Below, in pieces: positions 38,798 to 51,295 of a DNA stretch of 64,000 nt. The notes under the pieces are model-generated. The model had not been told where the DNA came from and did no database searches. It saw nothing but the letters and a program-made list of their open reading frames with translations. Within the stretch, counting starts at the first letter, position 1, and each line of letters opens with the position of its first letter. Source of the DNA: Thermoanaerobaculia bacterium (lineage in GTDB: Bacteria; Acidobacteriota; Thermoanaerobaculia; Multivoradales; J023); contig JAUIJL010000001.1 of NCBI GenBank assembly GCA_030431255.1, positions 868,001-932,000 on the forward strand, written 5' to 3'. Made by a program: the position numbers and the translations under genes.

Positions 38798-39760
38798 TTA
38801 AGGCTCGGCGGGCAAGATCCAAGTTCCGGTCTTGCCGTCGAGAGCGTCTTCGAGGGTGGCGATATCGGTGATCAAGGCTCGGTGTCCACCGCTTTCGACG
38901 AAACGACAAGCGGCGTCGATCTTCGGCCCCATGCTGCCCGGGGGGAAGTGGCCTTGGTCGAGATAGGCGCGGGCCTGGGTGGTGGTCATGGAGTCGATCT
39001 TCTCTTCTTCCGGGGTGCCGAAATGCAGGGCCACCTGGTCTACACCGGTGAGGATGAAGAGCTCTTCGGCGTCGGTATCCCGGGCGAGCACGGCGGAGGC
39101 GAGGTCCTTGTCGACCACCGCCTCGACACCCCTCAAGCGGCCGTCTTCCAAGCGAGCCACGGGAATACCGCCGCCGCCGGTGACGATCATCAAGATGCCG
39201 AGGTCCATCAGAGCGCGGATTTCAGCGGTCTCGACCACGGCGATGGGATCCGGTGAAGCGACCACTCGACGCCAGCCGCGTCCTTTGTCTTCTTTCATCA
39301 ACCAACCCCGTTCGGAGGTCAGCTTTTCGACTTCCTCTTCCGGGAAGAAGGGCCCGACGAATTTGGTCGGGTTGGAGAGGGCGGGGTCGTCGAGAGAGAC
39401 CTCCACCAACGTCAGCAACCCACACACGGGCTGCCGAAGGTCGGCGGCGTGCAATTTGTTGCGCAGGACTCTTTCGATCATGTAGCCGAGGCCACCTTGA
39501 AGGTCGGCGACGACCACGTCCAACGGGAGGTCCGGGGCCATGCCGCGCGCCATCTCGACTCGGATCATTTGATTGCCGACTTGAGGCCCGTTTCCGTGGG
39601 TCAGGGTGACATGGTATCCGCGCTTGATCAGCCGCAGGATGCCATCGAGGCTGGTGTGCAGGTTGATGTAATCCGTGGCCACGCTGCCGTCATCACCGGG
39701 CCGAGTAATTGCATTGCCGCCCAAGGCCACCACCACACGCTTCTGGTGTCGCTTCCCCAT
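38798..39760 (-). CDS. arcC: Carbamate kinase
   Basis: Transfers phosphate from carbamoyl phosphate to ADP, or the reverse. The 320-residue protein has the amino-acid kinase hallmarks VVVALGGNAITRPG, HGNGPQVGNQM, VVASPDPIAVVE and VTGGGGIPVARLEDG, with KIDAACRFVESGGHRALIT near the end. No arcA or arcB neighbour is present, so its role outside arginine deiminase metabolism is open. Convergent with the ABC-2 permease gene, with 69 bp between the stops. Confidence 0.93.
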   Translation of the reverse strand: MGKRHQKRVVVALGGNAITRPGDDGSVATDYINLHTSLDGILRLIKRGYHVTLTHGNGPQVGNQMIRVEMARGMAPDLPLDVVVADLQGGLGYMIERVLRNKLHAADLRQPVCGLLTLVEVSLDDPALSNPTKFVGPFFPEEEVEKLTSERGWLMKEDKGRGWRRVVASPDPIAVVETAEIRALMDLGILMIVTGGGGIPVARLEDGRLRGVEAVVDKDLASAVLARDTDAEELFILTGVDQVALHFGTPEEEKIDSMTTTQARAYLDQGHFPPGSMGPKIDAACRFVESGGHRALITDIATLEDALDGKTGTWILPAEP

Positions 39761-40247: not shown

Positions 40248-40937
40248 ATGGCGATGAGCCGAAAGATCCGAATCATGATCGCCGACGATCACGCCGACCA
40301 AGGCATTCCAGAGCTCATCACGGCGCAGGATGATATGGAGCTGCTCGGGGTGATCACCGATGGCGAGCAGTTGGTGGCTGAGGCTTGCCGGCTGTCTCCG
40401 GATCTCGTGATCATGGATCTCTCGTTGGCGGGAGGCGGGCTGAGGGCCCTCGAGCATCTCTCCGATACTCGCCCGGATATTCGCACGATCGTGTTGGCGC
40501 TGCACGAGGACATCTCGCTGTTGAGAACCGTGCTGGCGGTCGGCGCCTTGGGTTATGTGGTGAACCGCACGCACAAAGCCGAGCTGATCAACGTGATTCG
40601 AAAAATCGCCCAAGGGCGCGGCTACGTCGATGTGCCGACCGGAGGGTTGCCGGTGGATCCGCGGCTCAAGCCTCAAGTGCCGCGAAGCAAGGACATCCAA
40701 GAGAAATTGGATTTGCTGTCGAAGCGTGAGAGCGAGGTGCTGAAGGCGGTCGCTTACGGGTTCACCAACCGCGAAATCGCCGAGCGTCTCGGCATCAGTG
40801 TGAAGAGCATTGAAACTTACCGCTACCGGGTGGCCGAGAAGCTGAGCTTCAACAGTCGAGCGGACTTGGTGCGATTCGCCCTCGAAGCGGGCTTGCTACT
40901 GATGGGAGGCGAAGGTCTTCCAGATCCCACCGCCTGA
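40248..40937 (+). CDS. NarL/LuxR-type response regulator with degenerate receiver
   Basis: A 229-residue protein with a receiver (1-125) and a LuxR-type HTH (LSKRESEVLKAVAYGFTNREIAERLGISVKSIETYRYRVAEKL, about 158-200). The acidic pair D13-D14 and phospho-acceptor D57 are kept, but the switch Thr is A84 (IVLALHED) and the conserved Lys of the last loop is N106 (GYVVNRTHK). Phosphorylation-driven switching may be impaired. The DNA-binding domain looks intact. No histidine kinase is adjacent, which suits a regulator controlled by other means. A strong terminator follows. Confidence 0.9.
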   Translation: MAMSRKIRIMIADDHADQGIPELITAQDDMELLGVITDGEQLVAEACRLSPDLVIMDLSLAGGGLRALEHLSDTRPDIRTIVLALHEDISLLRTVLAVGALGYVVNRTHKAELINVIRKIAQGRGYVDVPTGGLPVDPRLKPQVPRSKDIQEKLDLLSKRESEVLKAVAYGFTNREIAERLGISVKSIETYRYRVAEKLSFNSRADLVRFALEAGLLLMGGEGLPDPTA

Positions 40938-41010: not shown

Positions 41011-41352
41011 TTAGGGGCCTAAGGCGGCAAATTGCACGGAGACTTTGGCGACCAGCCGGTCGTTTTGGTAGACCTCGCCTTCGCAGGAGATGAGTCTCTT
41101 GCCCCGTTTGAGCAGGATCCCCTTACCCACCAGACGGCCGGGCACGGCCCGCCGCATGAGCTGGACGTGTAGGCTGGAGGGAACCACGGATGCTGCCGCG
41201 GCTCTAGAGGCCGCGACTTCCGCCAAGGTGGTCAGCACCGCAAAGTGAACGGTTCCAGGCATCACATCATGCTCGGGTCGGGTGTCGAGAAGCACAGTGT
41301 TTTCGTCTTCACCGGCCCGAAATCCCATCCAGCCGTTGAAACCTATCGACAT
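41011..41352 (-). CDS. Hotdog thioesterase-like protein (PaaI/DUF4442 type)
   Basis: A 113-residue hotdog-fold protein: TRPEHDVMPGTVHFAVLTTLAEVAA covers the first strand and central helix, then LHVQLMRRAVPGRLVGKGILLKRGKRLISCEGEVYQNDRLVAKVSVQF the remaining strands. A catalytic Asp or Glu is less clear than in YbgC-type members. The ATG overlaps the M29 peptidase stop as TGATG, with GGAG upstream, so it is translationally coupled. It is the last gene of the operon. Confidence 0.75.
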   Translation of the reverse strand: MSIGFNGWMGFRAGEDENTVLLDTRPEHDVMPGTVHFAVLTTLAEVAASRAAAASVVPSSLHVQLMRRAVPGRLVGKGILLKRGKRLISCEGEVYQNDRLVAKVSVQFAALGP

Positions 41353-42611
41353 CAAATACTCTCCGCGAAAAATTGCTCGGGATAAACACCGTTCCGGATC
41401 AGGATGAGGCGGGAGCCGTCGGGCATGACCAAATCGACCTCGGGCACGGAGATCTGAGGTTGGGTCTCCGGTAGGTAGACTCGATCGATGTGCACGGCGT
41501 TCTCCGGTTTGGAGAAGAGACCGGGAGCGGTGATGCCACCGAAGTGGTCACTACGACCGAAGGCGATGTGCAGGCCCAGCTTTTCGTCCAGCAGAATTTC
41601 GCCGATCGGTCGGAGGCCAAAGTCCGCCAGCACACCGAGCCCCAGCTCGGCAATGTTGCCGTAGGCGGGCTCTTTTCGCAGCAGCTCACGCTCCCTCTCG
41701 GCGACGGGTCCCGATCCTTCTACCCCCACGGCCCGGTTACCTTCGATGGAGTAGACCACCACCTCACCGTCGAGCTCGACGGGCATTTTGCCCCGGCTTT
41801 GGCTGGGCACCGAGGGAAGCTCACCCTCGTACGGCACGATATAAGTCTCCCCGGACGGGAGGTTTCCCGCCGTGGACGGCGTGGTCAGCAAACCGGAGGA
41901 GACGTGGCTGGTGCGATGCCGCAGATCCAGGGTCAGCTCAAAAGTGCCCGCGGCTTCGTGTCGGAAGACGAATTCGGCGGCCTCCGCGCGGTCGAGGAGG
42001 GATTGGAGATGTCGACATCTGCGATCGATCTCGCCGTAGTCGAGGCGTAGGGCCGGTGTCATCTCGGGCGAGAATCGAGGCATGGTCGCGGCCCGGAAGC
42101 CGTGTTGCTTGGCCGCCAGCTTGAGCGGAGCGGTCGCGGAAAGCTCGGTGGGCGCCAAGAAGATCTGGTGCTCGTCGAAGATCTGGGCGAAGGGGATCTC
42201 GCGGCTGCCCTGGTAGGCGGACGCATCGTCCGCAATCGGCTGCCCAGCCTCAACTTGCCAGGCGACGTCGGGCAGGGGAGCGTTGTTGGTTCTGGCGTTG
42301 CGGAAGACGAAGAGGCCGAGCTGCAATCCGAGCTCGCCGGCCGTCGACGCCAGCTGCTCGTGCCACCGTTGGGCCAGGCGCCGGCGAGCCTTCCATGCCG
42401 GCCGATCCGGCAGCTCGGAATCCGGCAGATCGACCAAGAGAGCGATGGCTCGATCGGAGGGCCGGCGACCGAACACACGCCGGATCAGGTCGATCCACTC
42501 GCGGTCGGCGAGCTGGAGGTTTTCGGCTGACGAGCGGTCCGCCGGCTGATCGTGTGCTGGGTTCGAAAAGTTGTTCGAGTGTTGGGACAAGCCGCAGATC
42601 TCCCCGTGCAA
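41352..42611 (-). CDS. M29-family aminopeptidase-like protein
   Basis: The last 170 residues carry the M29 (aminopeptidase T) metal-site motifs: E254 in GNLPSGETYIVP, E322 in NIAELGLG, H348 in GLHIAFG, and H374/D376 in VHIDRVYLP. The fold needs two metal ions for N-terminal residue hydrolysis. The same family includes the ring-cleaving enzyme NicX, so peptide cleavage is probable, not certain. The first 30 residues (Asn/Ser-rich) are poorly conserved-looking, and the TTG start at 42611 is uncertain. It lies 16 nt downstream of the P450 gene and overlaps the thioesterase gene. Confidence 0.8.
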   Translation of the reverse strand: MHGEICGLSQHSNNFSNPAHDQPADRSSAENLQLADREWIDLIRRVFGRRPSDRAIALLVDLPDSELPDRPAWKARRRLAQRWHEQLASTAGELGLQLGLFVFRNARTNNAPLPDVAWQVEAGQPIADDASAYQGSREIPFAQIFDEHQIFLAPTELSATAPLKLAAKQHGFRAATMPRFSPEMTPALRLDYGEIDRRCRHLQSLLDRAEAAEFVFRHEAAGTFELTLDLRHRTSHVSSGLLTTPSTAGNLPSGETYIVPYEGELPSVPSQSRGKMPVELDGEVVVYSIEGNRAVGVEGSGPVAERERELLRKEPAYGNIAELGLGVLADFGLRPIGEILLDEKLGLHIAFGRSDHFGGITAPGLFSKPENAVHIDRVYLPETQPQISVPEVDLVMPDGSRLILIRNGVYPEQFFAESI

Positions 42612-42627
42612 TTCGACGTGTTGAGGC

Positions 42628-43983
42628 TCAACGCAGTCGAACTCTAACAGGCAATCCTCCCGCTGGGGCGAGGAGATGCCCGCAGCGCTCGACTTGGATC
42701 TGCTCGTGAACGGGCTCTATCTCTACCTTGCGAACGATCGTAGCTACCGCCACCTGGAGCTCGAGCATGGCCAAGCCCCTGCCGGTACAAACCCGCCCAC
42801 CACCGCCGAAGGGGGTCCAATCGTAGGCGTTGTGGTCGCCACGAAGGAAACGCTCCGGCTCAAAGCTTTCGGGGTTCGGAAAGAGGTCTGCCCGCTTTCC
42901 CATGATCGGAAAACACTGGGCGACCACAAATCCCGCCGGCAAGACGAAGCGACCCCGCTCACCCTCCAGCTCGATGGGCTGAGCCACGGTTCGGAACGAG
43001 GAGAACGGTCCGGCCGGTCGAAATCTGAAAGTCTCCTGGATCACCGCGGTCAAATAGGGCACCTTATCCAAATGCTCGGGGCCGAAGGGTTGATCGCCAA
43101 CGACCTCATCCAGCCGGCTCAAGAGCTCAGCCCGAATGTTGGGATGTCCCGCGAGACATTCCAAACACCAAGTGAGGAATCCTCCAGTAGTTTCGTGGCC
43201 GGCGAAGAGCAAGTTCATGATTTCGTCGATGAGACTTTCGTCTCCTAGAAATTCTCCGCCGCCGTCGGCTTTGAAAATCAGCTGATCGAGGATGGAGTCC
43301 TCAACTAGGGAGCGATCCCGGCGAGCAGCGACGATTTTGTCGCGAATCAGGCTTCTGACTTCTTCTCTCGCATGGATGATCTTTCCCCACGGGCTCCAGC
43401 GACCGAGGTTCCATTGCAGCTTCGGCATGGCTACCAGCTGTGAGCGGGCACCGAGGGCCGAGAAGTGCTCGAACCTTTCCGACAGCTGAGCGTTGAATTG
43501 GGGATCCTTGCCTCCTAACACCAAACGCACCAAGAATTGCAACGAAAGTCGATGCATCTCGGTGAGGAGGGGAAAGACTCGATCGCTTTCCCAGCTGAGG
43601 ACTCGTTCCTCGATCATTTGCCGAAAAAGGGACACGTGGCGGGCGTTGGCCTTGGTGCTGAGCAGTGGGACCAGCATCTTCTGGCGATTCTTGTGGGCTT
43701 GGCCGTCGAGGCAAAAAGTAGCATCGGTACCGAATAGAGCGCCGAGAAATCGGCTGTGGATTTGGGCGGCAGCGAGGTGATCCCGGGGAGCGCGGAAGAG
43801 CTGCCGCGCGGCATGGGGAGAGCTGAGAAAAGCCCAATGCTCAGCACCTGGAAACTTCAGGCAGAAAATGTCGCCTAGGGTTTCACTGCATTCGGTCAAC
43901 AGCTCGAGGGGCTCCTTGGCAAAGCGAGCCGCCTGCTTCCAGCTCGGCAGCGGACAAATGGGCGGAAGGGGTAGTGATTGCAT
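42628..43983 (-). CDS. Cytochrome P450
   Basis: A class-I-type bacterial P450 of about 451 residues. The I-helix motif FAGHETTGGFLTW, the K-helix ExxR (QETFRFRPAG), the PERF-type FEPERFLRGD and the haem loop FGGGGRVCTGRG (Cys399) are complete. Electron partners are not adjacent. Starts considered: ATG 43983, giving a standard Pro-rich N terminus (SLPLPPICPLPSW), and TTG 44052, which overlaps the RND stop as TTGA and would be translationally coupled. It lies within the RND operon, which points to oxidation of a compound the pump handles. Confidence 0.92.
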   Translation of the reverse strand: MQSLPLPPICPLPSWKQAARFAKEPLELLTECSETLGDIFCLKFPGAEHWAFLSSPHAARQLFRAPRDHLAAAQIHSRFLGALFGTDATFCLDGQAHKNRQKMLVPLLSTKANARHVSLFRQMIEERVLSWESDRVFPLLTEMHRLSLQFLVRLVLGGKDPQFNAQLSERFEHFSALGARSQLVAMPKLQWNLGRWSPWGKIIHAREEVRSLIRDKIVAARRDRSLVEDSILDQLIFKADGGGEFLGDESLIDEIMNLLFAGHETTGGFLTWCLECLAGHPNIRAELLSRLDEVVGDQPFGPEHLDKVPYLTAVIQETFRFRPAGPFSSFRTVAQPIELEGERGRFVLPAGFVVAQCFPIMGKRADLFPNPESFEPERFLRGDHNAYDWTPFGGGGRVCTGRGLAMLELQVAVATIVRKVEIEPVHEQIQVERCGHLLAPAGGLPVRVRLR

Positions 43984-44048
43984 CGAATGAAATTCCAAAG
44001 ATCGAAAGAGATGGGCCACTTTCTCAGCGGCGAGCGGAGAGAAAAAGA

Positions 44049-47000
44049 TCAATAGCGACCGGTCGGTTGGCTATCGATATCGCCAGAGCTTATCAGTAAA
44101 TTCTCGTGCTCCAGCGGATCCGATTTCAGTGGCCCGGAGGTCAAAGGTAAATGTTTCGAGTCCAGGTCTTCATCTATCGGATTTGGGCTTGCCGGCTCCG
44201 CAGGTAGGTCTCTGCGATCGAAAAGGGCGAGGGTCGCCGGCACCAAGAAGAGGATCAGCAGAGAAGCCACCAACAAGCCGAATGCAATGGAGACGGCCAT
44301 TGGAATCAGAAATTGGGCTTGAAGGCTCCGCTCGAGCATCAACGGAGCGAGCCCGGCAAAGGTCGTGAACGATGTCAGCAGAATGGGGCGGAAGCGCGCT
44401 CGGCCGGCGAGATGCAAAGCTTCGTGGACGGCGTGGCCCTGGGCGCGAGCTTGGTTGTAAAACCCGACCAACACGAGACTGTCATTAACGATGACCCCGC
44501 TCAGGGCGATGATGCCGAAAAACGAGTAGATGTTGAGGTCGAGGCCGAGCAAGGTGTGGCCCCAGAAGGCGCCGATCAAGCCGAAGGGCACGGCCGCAAC
44601 CACCACCAGCGGCTGAAAGAACGAGCCGCAGAAGAGAGCGAGCACGATGTAAATCCCGAACATTGCGAAAAAGAAACCACGCACCAAGCCGCCGATGGCT
44701 TTGCTCTGATCTTCCTGGCCTCCGGCCCATCGGTGCTTCACGTTGGGAAAGTCCGCCAGCACGGACGGTAGGACCTCCGATTCCAAGGTGCTCAATATGG
44801 TCTTCGGGTCCCCGTGGGGAGCCGCGGACCCGGCGATTTCCGCAACCCGTTTACCGTTGATCCGAGTGATCGTGTGGAGACCGGTCCTGAAGTCGAGGCG
44901 AGCCACGCTCTCCAAGGGCACAAAATGGCCGGCCGGAGTGAGAATCGGCAGATGCCGGAGAAACTCCAAGGAATCTCTCTCCGACTTGGCATAGCTGACC
45001 CGAATCCGTAGCTCGTCTTGATCTCGCTGGGAGCGTTGGGCTTCGATGCCGAAATAGGCATGGCGGGTTTGGCGTGCAATGTCCCGGCTGGAGAGCCCGA
45101 GGGTGTGAGCAGCGGGCAGCGGAGTGATGTTGATTTCCCGTGGGCCTGCCCCCAGGGAATTGGAGATGTCGAGGACACCGGGTAGCTTCAGCAGGGCCGC
45201 CTCCATGGCGGACGCCGCATCGCGCAAATCGTCTAAGTCCGGGGACGTCAGCTCCAGGGAAACCGTCGGTCCGGCCGAGAACATCGAGGATTCGTAACGC
45301 AGGTGCTCGACCCCGGCCACCGAGCCGACTCTTTGTCGCCACCCGGCGAGCAGGTGCGACGCCTTTGCCTCACGCGCTTCCGCGGGCCTCAGGGCCACGT
45401 TGACCTCGCCCAAGCTCGCGCCCACAATCTCCACGGTGCGTCCGGTGGACGCCAGGATCTGTTGGGCTACGAAAGGCTGGTGACCCACCGAGATCAAGGT
45501 GTTGCTGAGGGGAGACGGCATGCCTTCGGGCTGGGAATCAGCGGCGGCTCCGTCGGCGATCTGTCGCAACGCCTGCTCGGTGGCGCTTGGGGTGGTGCCG
45601 CTGGCCAGCTCAACGATCGCCACCATATTTTCCGCTTCCACTGGTGGAAAGAAAGTGAAACGCAGGTGGCCCGTCAGCAACGGCAAAAGGGAGATCACCA
45701 GGAGCAGAACGCCGACGATCCAGGTCATGGCACGGAGCTTGAGGGATCTGGCCAGCCAGGGAAGATACCAGCGGTCGCGGACGGCGTTCAGGCGGGAGGA
45801 TGCGGCCGAGCGCAAGCGTTCCATGGGGCCCGGATCGGAGCGCGTTTTGGTGGAGCCGGACAAATGATGGGGCAGGATCAGCACCGACTCTATGAGCGAG
45901 AACAGCAACGTGAGGATGACCGCTCCGGCGATCGCCGCCATCGCCGGGCCGGTCTTGCCCGGAATAAACAACATGGGAGCGAAGGCGATGAGGGTGGTCA
46001 GCACCGAGACAAAAACCGGTGCCGAAACTTCGTGAACCCCCCGCGCGGCGGCCTCAGCACCCTCGACGCCCTGCTCGATCAGCTGAAAAACACGCTCGCC
46101 GACGATGATGGCATCGTCGACCACGATTCCGAGCACCAGAATCAAGGCGAAGAGTGAAATCAAATTGAATGACATGCCGAAGGCCGGCATCCACCAAAAT
46201 GTGCCGAAGAACGAGATCGGCACCCCCAGACTCACCCACCAAGCGAGGCGCCAATGCAGGAAGAGTGAGAGGGTCAACAGGACGAGCAAAAAACCCGCGA
46301 CGGCGTTGCGCACCAACAGCTCGATTTGAGATCGGAAGAATCGACTCTCGTCTTGCCAGAGCAGTAGGCTGATGGAATCCGGCAGAGAGCGGCGTTTGTC
46401 GGCGACGAACCCCTGGACCTCTTCCGCAATTCGTAGGACATCCTGCGAGCCGACCCGAGAGATCGACAACATCAGTGCCGGCCGACCATCGAGAAGGGTC
46501 CATTGGCGTTTCTCCGCTAGCCCGTCCCGCAGGGTCGCCACCTCACCCAACAAGACGATGCTGCCGTCGGAACGACTGATCAAGGGAAGGCGGGCAAGGT
46601 CAGAGCGAGTCAAAGCCCGATGGTCGGAGCGCAGCTGAGATTCCCGCCCGCCGAGCTCGAGACGACCCGCGGGCAGATCTGAGGAGCCCTGGCGAATAGC
46701 TTCCGCGACCTGCTCCAAGCTGAGCCCCAGACGCCGAAGCTCGGATTCCGGCATGTCCACCGAGATCTCCCACCGGCGAGCCCCCAAGATATCGACTTTG
46801 GTGACGTCCGGTAGCTCGAGCAGGCCTCGCCGGATCTCTTCCGCCAGCCTTCGGAGAGCTACCTCGTCCAAGTCGCCGGAGACCACCACTCCAAGGGCCT
46901 GCTGGCTGCGGAGCACCAGCTTCACGTTGGGACGCTCGATGTCGGCGGGGAAGGTGTCGATGGAGTCGATGCGTGCCCGCACGTCCGCGAGGGTTTCATG

Positions 47001-47306
47001 GACCGGGCTACCGCGACGGATCTGGGCCGAGATGCGGGCTTCTCCTTGGGCCGCCGTGGAGTGGATACGCTCCAGGGATTGTAGGTCCTTGAGGCTGTCT
47101 TCCACTCGCAGGACGAGCCCGGTCTCGACCTCACGAGGACCTGCCCCGGGGAGCTCGATGGTGACCTCGATGCGGTCGCTTTGAAAATCCGGGAAAATCT
47201 GTCGCCGAATGCTGCCGATCGAGGCCAGCCCGCCCAAAATGATCAGGAGCATCAGGAGGTTGGCGGCCACCGGTGATCGGACCATGGCCTGAAGCAAGGC
47301 TTTCAA
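44049..47306 (-). CDS. RND-family efflux permease
   Basis: A 1085-residue inner-membrane transporter with two halves, each with a first transmembrane helix, a large periplasmic loop and a bundle of helices: VAANLLMLLIILGGLASIGSIRRQIFPDF, LRVEDSLKDLQSLERIHSTA, the helix-4 region FNLISLFALILVLGIVVDDAII with its Asp pair, and the second-half counterpart SFFGIIALSGVIVNDSLVLV. The type resembles HAE/CusA-like exporters. Start TTG 47306 overlaps the membrane-fusion gene stop (TTGA) and gives the usual N-terminal helix. The TolC partner is not in the operon. Confidence 0.95.
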   Translation of the reverse strand: MKALLQAMVRSPVAANLLMLLIILGGLASIGSIRRQIFPDFQSDRIEVTIELPGAGPREVETGLVLRVEDSLKDLQSLERIHSTAAQGEARISAQIRRGSPVHETLADVRARIDSIDTFPADIERPNVKLVLRSQQALGVVVSGDLDEVALRRLAEEIRRGLLELPDVTKVDILGARRWEISVDMPESELRRLGLSLEQVAEAIRQGSSDLPAGRLELGGRESQLRSDHRALTRSDLARLPLISRSDGSIVLLGEVATLRDGLAEKRQWTLLDGRPALMLSISRVGSQDVLRIAEEVQGFVADKRRSLPDSISLLLWQDESRFFRSQIELLVRNAVAGFLLVLLTLSLFLHWRLAWWVSLGVPISFFGTFWWMPAFGMSFNLISLFALILVLGIVVDDAIIVGERVFQLIEQGVEGAEAAARGVHEVSAPVFVSVLTTLIAFAPMLFIPGKTGPAMAAIAGAVILTLLFSLIESVLILPHHLSGSTKTRSDPGPMERLRSAASSRLNAVRDRWYLPWLARSLKLRAMTWIVGVLLLVISLLPLLTGHLRFTFFPPVEAENMVAIVELASGTTPSATEQALRQIADGAAADSQPEGMPSPLSNTLISVGHQPFVAQQILASTGRTVEIVGASLGEVNVALRPAEAREAKASHLLAGWRQRVGSVAGVEHLRYESSMFSAGPTVSLELTSPDLDDLRDAASAMEAALLKLPGVLDISNSLGAGPREINITPLPAAHTLGLSSRDIARQTRHAYFGIEAQRSQRDQDELRIRVSYAKSERDSLEFLRHLPILTPAGHFVPLESVARLDFRTGLHTITRINGKRVAEIAGSAAPHGDPKTILSTLESEVLPSVLADFPNVKHRWAGGQEDQSKAIGGLVRGFFFAMFGIYIVLALFCGSFFQPLVVVAAVPFGLIGAFWGHTLLGLDLNIYSFFGIIALSGVIVNDSLVLVGFYNQARAQGHAVHEALHLAGRARFRPILLTSFTTFAGLAPLMLERSLQAQFLIPMAVSIAFGLLVASLLILFLVPATLALFDRRDLPAEPASPNPIDEDLDSKHLPLTSGPLKSDPLEHENLLISSGDIDSQPTGRY

Positions 47307-48943
47307 GGTGGCGCCCCGAATACGATGACGACACCTTGAGGCCCGACCTCAATCACGGGCGGGGGGATAGCTCGGTCCAGCTCGATCACCACTCGGGCAA
47401 TCGGCGGGTCGTGGTTGAATTGAGCCAAACGAGCTCGACGGAAAGGGCCTGCGTCAAGGATTTCGACATCCGGAGCGTGGGGCCAGGAGCTTCCCCTCAA
47501 ATCGGCGACCCAGCGGTGGGGTTGCTCCAAGGCAAAAAGCTGAGGGTCGCCGATGCGGTCTCCAGACACATGGACGCGCAAAGTCTCCCCGTCCTGATCG
47601 ACGCTCCAAGTCGTGAGCGTCGACTGCCCTTGGGAGATGTGAGGGGTAGGCTCCGGATGGGCATCCAATGGGTCGGCCAACAGTTCAGAGTTGGGGGCCA
47701 CGGCCGAGGATTCGAAGGGCTCCAGCGCTGCAGGAGGACGGCTGCCCACCAGCGCGTAGAGATCCTCCGTGTCCATGGGAAGCGGCTCGATCAACATGCC
47801 GTCAGTGGCCCAGGAGGGAGGTGAATAGCACACTCGATCTCCGTCCTGAAGACCTGAGCTCACGGCCAGCCACGTGTCTCGGTCGGCTCCGATTTGAATG
47901 TCGCGGCGTTCCAAGGCTCCGGCTTGCCCCAAGACTAAAACCGAGCTTTCCGCGAGCAACGCTGCTCGGGGAATCCAGAATCCGCGGCGAGGTTGCTCAA
48001 GCACGATACGGGCGGCGACCAAAGCGCCGGCGCGAGCCAATGGGTTTAGGGGGGTGCCGTCGGGACGGGTCTCGGGGACGAGCCTGACCACTAGGTGGCC
48101 CAGGCCCGTTTCGGGGTCGATTTGGGGCTCGATCCGCTCAGGCTGAGCGATGCCGAGGACGGCGGATTCGGGCTGGTCTTGAGGGGAGAGCACCACCCGA
48201 GCTTCTTTCGGGTTTCGCTCGATCCATTTCAGATGACGGCTCGAAACGGGAAGACGGGCTTCGAGGAACTCCGTGGATTGGAGCTCGGCGATCGGATCCC
48301 CAACCCGAAGATATTGACCGGGCTCCACCAGCCGGGCGGTGATCCAAGCCGAATAGGGAGCTGTGAGCTGAGTCCGAGAGAGGTCTAAACGGGCTTTCTC
48401 CAAAGCTGCCCGGGCTGCTTCGAGACGGGCTTCCGCTGCTTTGAGCTGGGGTCGTCGGGTTGCCAGCTCATGGTGTGGAGAGGCCTCAGCCTCAGCGGTG
48501 TCGAGGGCCCGTCGTGCTTGCCATTCCGCCTCAGCAGCCTGGGCCTCAGCCCGTTCTTGATGCCAGTGCAGCTCGGCTGCGGCCAATGACGCCTCGAGCT
48601 GCACGACGGCTAGTTGATAGTCCCGGGGATCGATTCGCGCCAGGGAGTCGCCGGCAGCAATGATCTCGCCCGGATAGAGTCTGCTCGAAACTCGAGTGAC
48701 TACCCCCGCGACCTGTGCCGAGAGCCGAGTTTCCACACCCGGTCGGAGCCGTCCCCAGGCCTTGGTTTCGAGGTGGTAGACCCCTTCTTCGGCGATGAAG
48801 ACCCTGACGGTCGGTGGGGCGGAGTCGGCGGGCTCCGGAGGCAGGTCTGCCCGGCCGCAGGCCAAGGCCCCAAACAGCGACATGCCCAGGAGGAGGTGGC
48901 CAAGCTTGTCCGATCCTCGTCTGAGACGACCTGGGCGTCGCAT
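47303..48943 (-). CDS. Membrane-fusion lipoprotein (HlyD/MFP) with C-terminal AMIN domain
   Basis: From ATG 48943 (GGAG 5 nt upstream) the protein has 546 residues. A lipobox LFGALACG is followed by the MFP barrel-sandwich (VETRLSAQVAGVVTRVSSRLYPGE), a long coiled coil (AAELHWHQERAEAQAAEAEW...), the lipoyl return (TAPYSAWITARLVEPGQYLRVGD) and beta-barrel domains (LERRDIQIGADRDTWLAVSSGLQ). About 95 residues at the C terminus form an AMIN-like domain (VHVSGDRIGDPQLFAL, RWVADLRG, IARVVIELD). AMIN domains bind peptidoglycan or septal sites in amidases and PilQ; their presence on an RND adaptor is unusual. Overlaps the pump gene by 4 nt. Confidence 0.88.
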   Translation of the reverse strand: MRRPGRLRRGSDKLGHLLLGMSLFGALACGRADLPPEPADSAPPTVRVFIAEEGVYHLETKAWGRLRPGVETRLSAQVAGVVTRVSSRLYPGEIIAAGDSLARIDPRDYQLAVVQLEASLAAAELHWHQERAEAQAAEAEWQARRALDTAEAEASPHHELATRRPQLKAAEARLEAARAALEKARLDLSRTQLTAPYSAWITARLVEPGQYLRVGDPIAELQSTEFLEARLPVSSRHLKWIERNPKEARVVLSPQDQPESAVLGIAQPERIEPQIDPETGLGHLVVRLVPETRPDGTPLNPLARAGALVAARIVLEQPRRGFWIPRAALLAESSVLVLGQAGALERRDIQIGADRDTWLAVSSGLQDGDRVCYSPPSWATDGMLIEPLPMDTEDLYALVGSRPPAALEPFESSAVAPNSELLADPLDAHPEPTPHISQGQSTLTTWSVDQDGETLRVHVSGDRIGDPQLFALEQPHRWVADLRGSSWPHAPDVEILDAGPFRRARLAQFNHDPPIARVVIELDRAIPPPVIEVGPQGVVIVFGAPP

Positions 48944-48960
48944 AGCGACTCCGAACAGAG

Positions 48961-49854
48961 TCAGGCCGGTGGAGCAGGTGGTTTGAAGGAGGTGGCCATT
49001 CCGGTCTTGCCGGCGGAGAGATCGGCGGCGAAATCGGCCCAAGACCTTGGGGTAATGCCCAGCTGCCCAAGGGTGTCGGTGGTGAAGGAGGAAGTACCCT
49101 CTCGAATCCGTCGGAAGACGTAAGCCACGTGTGCGACCGAGGAGCCCGCAACGCCCATGGCTTTCATGGCGGCCGACATTTGCTCGGGCGGAATATCCGC
49201 ATAAACGATGGTTTTACCCAGGGATTTGCTCAGGATGCCGGCGATTTCATCCATGGTCAACGAGGCTGGGCCGGTGATCTCGTAAGTCTGATTGTGGTGC
49301 CGGTCCTCCGTGAGGCAGGTGAGCACCGCAAGGGCGACGTCGCGAATATCGAGATAAGGGGCATCGCCTTGACCGGCGGGCGCCGGCATCAGACCCTGGC
49401 TTTCGATGGTCGCCGCGGACATCCAGAAGACGGTTTGGAAAAAACCGTGGGGCCGAATAATGGTGTAGTCGATACCGGAGCTCTTGAGGTGACTTTCCGA
49501 GGCGGCGTGCAGTCGCAGATTCGGGCTCGGAGACTCCAGGTCGGTCCAGAAGGCGGATAGCTTGACGATTTTTGAGACGCCGGCTTGTTTTGCGGCATCG
49601 ATCATCGCGATCTCACGATCGGCCAAGTGTTGGTCCGGGGTGCAAACCAAATACAGCTTATCGACTCCGCCCAGAGCCGAAGGAAGGGTCTCCGGAGCAT
49701 CGAAATCTCCGAGCACCGCATCGATACCCTGAGCGCTCAGGGTGCCGAGAGCTTCCGGCCGACGGACCATGCAGCGGAAAGGGTGGTCGGATTCCGACAG
49801 CAGTCTCACCAGCTCGCTACCGGTTCCTCCGGTGGCGCCTGTTACGAGGATCAT
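48961..49854 (-). CDS. NmrA-like NAD(P)-binding reductase
   Basis: A 297-residue Rossmann protein starting ILVTGATGGTGSELVRLL, with the NmrA/SDR (atypical) outline: FDAPETLPSALGGVDKLYLV, KIVKLSAFWTDLE, IRPHGFFQTVFWMSA, ITGPASLTMDEIAGILS. The usual SDR Tyr-x3-Lys is not obvious. Members act as azoreductases, quinone-sensing regulators or isoflavone-type reductases. ATG 49854 has GGAGG 5 nt upstream and is chosen over TTG 49866. It is the first gene of the pump operon, ending 17 nt before the membrane-fusion gene. Confidence 0.88.
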   Translation of the reverse strand: MILVTGATGGTGSELVRLLSESDHPFRCMVRRPEALGTLSAQGIDAVLGDFDAPETLPSALGGVDKLYLVCTPDQHLADREIAMIDAAKQAGVSKIVKLSAFWTDLESPSPNLRLHAASESHLKSSGIDYTIIRPHGFFQTVFWMSAATIESQGLMPAPAGQGDAPYLDIRDVALAVLTCLTEDRHHNQTYEITGPASLTMDEIAGILSKSLGKTIVYADIPPEQMSAAMKAMGVAGSSVAHVAYVFRRIREGTSSFTTDTLGQLGITPRSWADFAADLSAGKTGMATSFKPPAPPA

Positions 49855-50041: not shown

Positions 50042-51295
50042 TCAGAAACTCACAGCAAGAGAAAGAATTGAATAATTACCGTTTCTGAAGGGTGTGAGGA
50101 CGGGATCTAGGAGAAAAGATCCATCCGGGAAAGGAGTCGGAATGAACCCGAGGGCCTCTTCCTCAACCCAGTGATATTCCCCTTTCAACACCACATTGGA
50201 GCTGAAGCGATAGTTGATGGAGACACCGGTGTCGGTGCGGACGTCTTGGACCGCCGGCCGAGTAAAGAAGTCCGAGGTCTGGGTGACCTCAGATTGCTCC
50301 CACTGCGCGAACGCGTGGATTTTTTCGGTGAAATAGTAGCCGAATTGATACCAGGTCACGCGATCCACAGCCTTGGAGGAAAAGCCTAAAAGCGGGCTGT
50401 TCAGCTGGCCGGTCAGGGCCCGATGCTCGGCTCTGAGAATAAAGCGCCGGGCGGGAAGCTCCGCGGATACGTACCAATCTTCAAATTCAGTGGCCTCACC
50501 GATGGGCCGGAAGATGCCCTCTTGACCCCCGAAGACATCCCGTTTTTGGCCTCCCAATCCAATCCGCAGACCCGAGTAAGGCGTGTTGAGCCAAAGTTGA
50601 ATCCCCCTTGCATCTTTGGCTTCGGCAATGGCGGGTGGGTCGTCGGGGACGAATACCGCCTGCTCGACGAGCTCGTACTCACCGTAGAAGACGTCCACGT
50701 CGAGAGGCCAGTCGGTTTCGCCGAAGAAGGAATGATGGAGCAGGGCTCCATCCACCGTCTCGCTGGTGAAGCTGCCTTCCCGATAGAAAATGTAGGGTGG
50801 ACGATAGAAAGGCAAGATGGTGCCGACGTCGCGAATTTCGTTGAAGATGCCGAGAGGAATCTGGACCCGGCCGATTTTGACGGAGGTATTGTCCGTAAGC
50901 CGTCGCTGATAGAACGCCCAATCCAGCTCGATATCGTCTTCGATCTTGTTGATGGGGCTGTCGCCGAGGCTGCGGCTGCTGAGCTGGACCACCAGGAGAT
51001 CTTTCTCGGAAATCTCATAGCGGAATTGGAGCGCCAAGAATCGGTAGTCGGTCGTCCCGCTTTCGGGGATGCCGACGATGACCTCATTGGGAGTGGGGCC
51101 GCCGTCCGTAAAGCTCGATTGGGCATATGCTTGGGTCATAAACCCATGGAATTGGAATTTTTCGCTCAGCTCATCTGCAAACGCTGCCGGGGCTGCGGTG
51201 AGGAGAAGCAGGAGCAGCGGCCAGAGCCGGAATGGATGAGGGCCGAGCTGCAAGCAGGACCGGCAAACGGGCGAAGAAAAACACTTGCTCGTCAT
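50042..51295 (-). CDS. Outer-membrane beta-barrel porin-like protein
   Basis: A 417-residue protein with a signal peptide (LWPLLLLLLTAAPAAFA), then repeating amphipathic strands with aromatic girdle residues (FHGFMTQAYAQSSF, LALQFRYEISEKDLLVVQL, SVKIGRVQIPLGIFNEI, WYVSAELPARRFILRAEH, GYYFTEKIHAFAQWEQ). It ends in the C-terminal Phe (SLAVSF) expected for BAM-dependent barrels. It resembles phosphate-type or poorly defined porins; the solute is unknown. AGGAG lies 5 nt before the ATG. It is not in the pump operon: about 175 bp separate the two. Confidence 0.85.
   Translation of the reverse strand: MTSKCFSSPVCRSCLQLGPHPFRLWPLLLLLLTAAPAAFADELSEKFQFHGFMTQAYAQSSFTDGGPTPNEVIVGIPESGTTDYRFLALQFRYEISEKDLLVVQLSSRSLGDSPINKIEDDIELDWAFYQRRLTDNTSVKIGRVQIPLGIFNEIRDVGTILPFYRPPYIFYREGSFTSETVDGALLHHSFFGETDWPLDVDVFYGEYELVEQAVFVPDDPPAIAEAKDARGIQLWLNTPYSGLRIGLGGQKRDVFGGQEGIFRPIGEATEFEDWYVSAELPARRFILRAEHRALTGQLNSPLLGFSSKAVDRVTWYQFGYYFTEKIHAFAQWEQSEVTQTSDFFTRPAVQDVRTDTGVSINYRFSSNVVLKGEYHWVEEEALGFIPTPFPDGSFLLDPVLTPFRNGNYSILSLAVSF

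Follow-up and report, generated by a model that had tools for sequence, protein, structure and literature searches.

Do six genes packed together on one strand of a Thermoanaerobaculia genome form a single unit with a shared purpose, or do they only happen to lie side by side? The window analysed here, a stretch of 64,000 nucleotides, corresponds to positions 868001-932000 of contig C15 in a genome of 10.2 Mb and 54 contigs (labelled G000). A sequence-only reading of this window had proposed an operon joining an NmrA-type reductase, a resistance-nodulation-division (RND) pump with an AMIN domain, a cytochrome P450, an M29 peptidase and a thioesterase. Re-reading the open reading frames and their junctions confirmed that all six lie on the minus strand and are tightly packed. 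With moderate confidence, we interpret them as a lineage-specific transcription unit, the product of rearrangement among genes that its taxonomic family already had side by side. What is new about the operon is its arrangement, the genes being of known kinds; its most unusual parts are the AMIN-tailed adaptor and the family of the M29-fold protein, hereafter M29L. The six genes are as follows:

48961-49854, minus strand: NmrA-type NAD(P)H-dependent reductase; ATG start; Pfam NmrA
47303-48943, minus strand: RND periplasmic adaptor (HlyD/RND_mfp) with a C-terminal AMIN domain; ATG start; HlyD_3, AMIN and TIGR01730
44049-47306, minus strand: RND permease (ACR_tran), very divergent; TTG start; ACR_tran
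42628-43983, minus strand: cytochrome P450; start at ATG 43983 (TTG 44052 possible); p450 and motifs
41352-42611, minus strand: M29L, probable M29-fold metalloenzyme of 419 residues; TTG start; AlphaFold2 model and ligand conservation
41011-41352, minus strand: hotdog-fold thioesterase-like protein of 113 residues; 4HBT and H-x8-E motif

Most of the junctions are unambiguous. A 17-nt gap separates the reductase and adaptor genes, the adaptor and permease genes share 4 nt (TTGA), a 16-nt gap lies between the P450 and M29L genes, and M29L and the hotdog gene overlap by 1 nt (TGATG); M29L starts at TTG 42611 or TTG 42590, an ATG not being available. For the permease/P450 junction, it had been remarked that the P450 start may overlap the pump stop. 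Such an overlap, of 4 nt, is possible with TTG 44052, but ATG 43983, which leaves a 65-nt gap, is the likelier start, since alignments with homologues set in near this codon. A ten-pair hairpin lies 3' of the hotdog stop, and because the junctions are tight and this hairpin follows the last gene, we favour a single operon; the T-run of the hairpin fits the converging plus-strand gene better than the hotdog side. Runs of this kind are uncommon by chance, not extraordinary: co-directional runs of at least six genes with gaps of 70 nt or less made up 7 of 941 runs in 99 other loci (each of at least 15 kb, some mutually overlapping, and read with a crude gene caller), and six genes is the longest co-directional run within the window.

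The sequence-only reading had not counted a porin-like open reading frame on the same strand, 187 nt upstream of the six genes. The unit might begin with this gene, since a promoter-like site is found about 40 nt upstream of the porin start. The scan gave 4 promoter-like sites against 1.9 in shuffled sequence, and neither these nor the terminator-like sites were a strong class. RNA folding of the gap between the porin and NmrA genes was uninformative (z -2.5, without a T-run after the first stem), and base composition shows no sharp break along the locus; a PHROGs search gave nothing useful either. The features flanking the six genes are:

50042-51295, minus strand: porin-like protein, next gene upstream; low-confidence model; synteny with the P450
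40959-40982: ten-pair hairpin, probable terminator, at the point where the hotdog and regulator genes converge
40248-40937, plus strand: response regulator (receiver and LuxR-type helix-turn-helix), converging, member of an old block of genes; Pfam and synteny in a relative, G002
38798-39760, minus strand: amino-acid-kinase-family gene, old neighbour of M29L; AA_kinase, 82.8 bits

To place this arrangement among its relatives, homologues of M29L, the P450, the RND permease, the adaptor, the porin, the hotdog protein and the NmrA protein were each searched for in 118 genomes, that of the window included; RND and adaptor candidates were limited per genome, flanks were read for part of the matches, and distant homologues below the thresholds would have been missed. 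Among these 118 the six-gene order was seen only in the window's genome, and it was not seen in 80 M29L loci; it was rejected as a conserved module. Parts of it recur in the family. A porin gene lies within 6 kb of a P450 gene in six of the seven family genomes (G000, G001, G002, G003, G004 and G006), the linked P450 belonging to the window's subfamily in G000, G001, G002 and G004 and to a second subfamily (P450B) in G001, G002, G003 and G006. M29L is found in six of these genomes; it lies within 10 kb of the porin in four (G000, G003, G004 and G006) and is accompanied by the amino-acid kinase in four (G000, G002, G003 and G006, the G004 contig ending there), the kinase adjoining or near M29L in G002, G003 and G006 at 66-70% identity.

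Individual genomes show how these pieces are laid out. G002 carries M29L, the hotdog gene, the opposite-strand regulator and the amino-acid kinase in the window's order without the pump (identities 55, 64, 61 and 66%), its response regulator (61%) having the same place and orientation as the window's; its porin, P450B and P450 (42%) lie on a contig other than that of M29L. Within about 10 kb of G003, on mixed strands, are M29L, an RND permease (42%), a porin (52%) and a P450. This contig reads amino-acid kinase and M29L (minus), an FG-GAP/ASPIC protein and the RND permease (plus), then porin, P450B, RNaseD, a 361-residue protein and SecA (minus), and differs from the window in the divergent orientation of its permease and in the subfamily to which its P450 (26%) belongs. 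In G006, contig C482 carries the amino-acid kinase, M29L, a permease and the 3' portion of a porin gene, while contig C454 begins or ends in the 5' portion of one and also has P450B, RNaseD and SecA; these two contigs may join, which would give a layout like that of G003. G004 holds porin, P450 (41%), RNaseD and M29L within 10 kb, G001 holds P450B, SecA, RNaseD, porin and P450 (40%) with no M29L match, and in G005 M29L lies near SecA, while the sequence read around its porin contains no P450. A SecA-RNaseD-P450B-porin neighbourhood is common to G001, G003 and G006 (loci L076+L127, L088 and L316), with a different order in G001, and is absent at the window.

The G002 block, the porin-P450 linkage and the G003/G006 clusters point to a rearranged old neighbourhood as the source of the unit. 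Its old pieces would be the porin with the P450, and M29L with the hotdog gene, the regulator and the amino-acid kinase; the additions would be the divergent RND pump pair with its AMIN-tailed adaptor and the NmrA reductase. The operon thus looks evolutionarily young, and shows how a family-specific neighbourhood may be rearranged into one unit. The sequence-only reading had made its case depend on finding homologues of the enzymes beside the pump in related genomes. This was borne out in part: the full order was not seen elsewhere in the genomes searched, but M29L, a permease and a P450 are close together in G003 and apparently also in G006.

The same comparisons also allow that the genes came together by inheritance and rearrangement only, with the pump, the P450/porin pair and the M29L/hotdog pair serving separate functions. 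We regard this as a serious possibility, though short of probable. The exact order was seen in one genome only, the M29L-hotdog pair of G002 has partners of its own, and M29L has no widely recurrent neighbour, the largest clusters covering 9 of 68 loci, mostly records labelled Holophagaceae or Geothrix (12 of the 80 loci were dropped where the gene caller missed M29L). Moreover, the housekeeping genes SecA and RNaseD belong to the same old neighbourhood, so linkage need not be functional. Against a purely positional origin, the window's genome carries SecA and RNaseD on contig C48, with no match in the window, and yet has porin, P450, RND, M29L and amino-acid kinase together; the six genes also share one direction, with junctions that are short or overlapping.

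Several further findings weigh against a single unit with a common task. A weak terminator-like site of 6 pairs (44031-44015) between the pump stop and the P450 ATG speaks against a single transcript and suits separate functions, although chance may account for it, since the scan counted 11 such sites and shuffled sequence gives 9.8. On this strand, the scan detected no promoter-like site between the porin and NmrA genes. Clear matches to other window genes were present in 4 of the 80 M29L loci (3 to 21 kb, some with short flanks), namely those of G002, G003, G004 and G006, with distant matches at L206 (P450, 28%) and L233 (RND, 27%); M29L and the hotdog gene are adjacent in two of the six genomes holding both. 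The joining of adaptor, permease and P450, and the NmrA neighbour, were likewise observed only in the window's genome, and none of the 11 other P450 matches lies within 100 kb of a listed RND match (at most 6 RND candidates scored per genome). Of the 117 other genomes, 8 have NmrA homologues (E ≤1e-30), none exceeding 39% identity; those of G003 and G006 lie on contigs other than that of the locus. The pump is not clearly orthologous to the permease near M29L in G003 and G006; in a tree of 24 permeases (one row cut to 1150 residues) the window permease has no supported sister, and its end branch, at 2.94, is about ten times the median of 0.27. A clade joining it with those two permeases was not rejected (approximately unbiased test, p-AU 0.207). 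Finally, among the nine window proteins scanned against Pfam, the porin-like one included, there was no match to an outer-membrane factor family, which may be encoded outside the scanned set, and no redox partner for the P450.

If the genes of this rearranged unit do share a task, it would most likely be the handling of a hydrophobic small molecule, probably aromatic or lipid-like. The compound would be modified in the cytoplasm by the NmrA reductase and P450 and extruded by the RND pump, with AMIN anchoring the adaptor to peptidoglycan. Either this compound or a conjugate of it may be cleaved by M29L and the hotdog thioesterase; alternatively, these two may be old neighbours that are simply transcribed along with the rest. 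We tentatively suggest a task shared by the pump, P450 and reductase, at somewhat less than an even chance, and consider a joint function of all six genes unlikely. Distinctly improbable is the fullest version, an oxidise-reduce-cleave-export machine in which an AMIN-anchored RND pump, a P450, an NmrA reductase, a non-aminopeptidase M29-fold enzyme and a thioesterase make or clear one hydrophobic metabolite. A joint task is plausible and unproven, because parts of the set are old neighbours but the whole operon was seen only here. The earlier proposal of a detoxification or export module keeps the standing of an inference.

The family labels given earlier to the hotdog protein, P450, AMIN-bearing RND pump and NmrA reductase all held, each above its family cut-off. 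The adaptor belongs to the RND_mfp/HlyD family (TIGR01730, 160.8 bits against a cut-off of 94.9; Pfam HlyD_3, 53.1 bits, above cut-off) and carries an AMIN domain (28.6 bits, cut-off 20.5); its C-terminal domain spans about residues 450-546 of 546. Its partner is an ACR_tran permease (503.2 bits, cut-off 28) with the motif VVDDAI at residue 395, counted as the proton-relay aspartate pair and presumably that of transmembrane helix 4. The permease also reads VND at residue 940, the residue number at which AcrB has a lysine (Lys940). As in RND tripartite efflux systems of the AcrAB/MdtABC type, adaptor and permease match their families and their genes overlap by 4 nt; unlike in those systems, the adaptor ends in AMIN, a gene for an outer-membrane factor is not recognised alongside, and the pump genes are followed by P450, M29L and hotdog genes.

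AMIN-tailed adaptors are also encoded in four other genomes, G003 (30.6 bits), G006 (29.3 bits), G047 (21.4 bits) and G049 (21.8 bits), the last two just above the cut-off. In G003 and G006 some 6.5 kb separate the adaptor from another RND permease; in G047 and G049 the adaptor is followed immediately by an RND permease. Their positions are:

L139:5359-7038, L140:6201-7736, L283:1492-3240 and L286:1480-3066: AMIN-tailed adaptors in other genomes

Across a phylum sample, adaptor matches were present in 44 of 297 genomes, and among the matches listed only those of G000, G047 and G049 extend past model position 500, into the AMIN part; such adaptors are probably under-counted because at most four candidates were scored per genome. 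Among the papers listed in literature searches, none was found to describe an AMIN-tailed RND adaptor. The AMIN domains of PilQ bind peptidoglycan (PMC5285504). By analogy with PilQ-type proteins, which share the domain, the adaptor might bind or be tethered to peptidoglycan, although here AMIN is C-terminal on an RND adaptor; if it is so tethered, this would be a new way to hold or place an RND pump in the envelope.

Among the putative modifying enzymes, the NmrA protein (91.9 bits, cut-off 27) has a GxxGxxG nucleotide motif, GATGGTG, at residue 6, as in NAD(P)-binding NmrA proteins, and its closest solved structures are triphenylmethane reductase (2vrc, E 2.7e-28) and the ketoreductase SimC7. 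The P450 (Pfam p450, 195 bits) has the heme-cysteine motif FGGGGRVCTG, the I-helix motif AGHETT and the ExxR motif ETFR; CYP120 (2ve3, E 2.8e-28) is its closest solved structure. Its highest identity is 42% (G002), a tree of 16 rows gave it no supported sister, and a literature search for Thermoanaerobaculia with cytochrome P450 found nothing. The hotdog protein matches 4HBT (30 bits, cut-off 20.6) and has an H-x8-E motif. For the porin-like protein, which has no Pfam match and is matched in 17 of 117 other genomes, a low-confidence model (predicted local distance difference test score, pLDDT, 54) was used only for its count of 16 strands.

The label M29 peptidase held up in part: M29L has a predicted M29-like fold and five putative metal ligands, but a metallo-aminopeptidase is not established, as the catalytic tyrosine is gone and a family match is lacking. 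The window member has no Pfam or NCBIfam match at E ≤0.001 and falls short of the Peptidase_M29 gathering score; among 22 aligned members, 9 touched Peptidase_M29 at E ≤0.1 (best 5.5e-5), and NCBIfam on these 22 gave nothing useful. In its AlphaFold2 model (pLDDT 91.1), the best fold match is NicX (7cn3; Z 25.5, root-mean-square deviation 3.4, 309 residues aligned), which Foldseek also placed first. M29 enzymes scored Z 17.0-19.2 overall (PepS 4icr 19.2, AmpT 2ayi 18.6, AmpS 1zjc 17.3), and the crocagin proteins CgnE and CgnB 14.4 and 13.2, with the next row at 6.7. Residues E255, E322, H348, H374 and D376 are invariant in 22/22 and 37/37 aligned rows, and were assigned as ligands from their spacing and from the alignment of the 22-row profile with AmpT. 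Their spacings of 67/26/26/2 nearly equal the 66/29/33/2 of AmpS, whose metal ligands are E253, E319, H348, H381 and D383 (PMC7023490). M29L differs from AmpS, AmpT and PepS in having no tyrosine between H348 and H374 that could correspond to that of the EEHYHD motif, nor any conserved there in 22 rows.

The rank of NicX, a 2,5-dihydroxypyridine dioxygenase, raises the prospect of aromatic or heterocyclic ring cleavage, with M29L as a NicX-like non-heme iron dioxygenase working with a P450 hydroxylase, the NmrA reductase and the hotdog thioesterase, the porin serving uptake and the pump efflux. The higher Z score, the agreement of Foldseek and the closeness of the NmrA protein to triphenylmethane reductase are in keeping with this. 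So is the HxD pair H374/D376, which has the same spacing as NicX H318/D320, the only pair matchable, and by spacing alone, among the NicX iron ligands H265, S302, H318 and D320 (PMC7910607). However, M29L has a Glu-rich ligand set: E255, E322 and H348, part of the M29 two-metal set, are in every aligned row, and by spacing NicX H265 would fall at E322. Sequence profiles likewise led to aminopeptidase T (E 0.0027 with 22 rows, 0.28 with 37), the only M29-fold chain found, NicX being unlisted at E ≤10. We give ring cleavage a slim chance. Neither plain label was kept: M29 peptidase was rejected for the missing tyrosine and a fold closer to NicX, and NicX dioxygenase for the retained glutamates. 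M29L is instead probably, as its model and ligands suggest, a metalloenzyme of M29 fold with a hydrolase-like ligand set.

The CgnE and CgnB matches bring in one more pathway, the biosynthesis and export of a ribosomally synthesised and post-translationally modified peptide (RiPP), in which the P450 and the M29-fold protein would act on a peptide as CgnB/CgnE do for crocagin and the pump would export the product. Those proteins share with M29L an M29-derived fold outside Pfam, and CgnB keeps a two-metal site (PMC10070186). The P450 does score against the RiPP P450 model ApyO, at 138.9 bits, far under the cut-off of 525. We nevertheless consider this pathway highly improbable: no RiPP enzyme family was above cut-off in the scanned proteins, short precursor peptides being unsearched, and M29L is longer than the crocagin proteins and occurs in hundreds of genome stretches.

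Relatives of M29L are encoded in at least 567 of 591 pattern-matched genome stretches, with records from Acidobacteriota, Myxococcota, Geothrix, Proteobacteria and others (loci L186-L265). This is thus a large, conserved family whose member in the window stands outside Pfam and NCBIfam. The predicted fold of that member is intermediate between those of aminopeptidases and of a ring-cleaving dioxygenase, and which reaction it catalyses can be tested directly. A second M29L group, at about 35-41% identity, is present in relatives of the same class.

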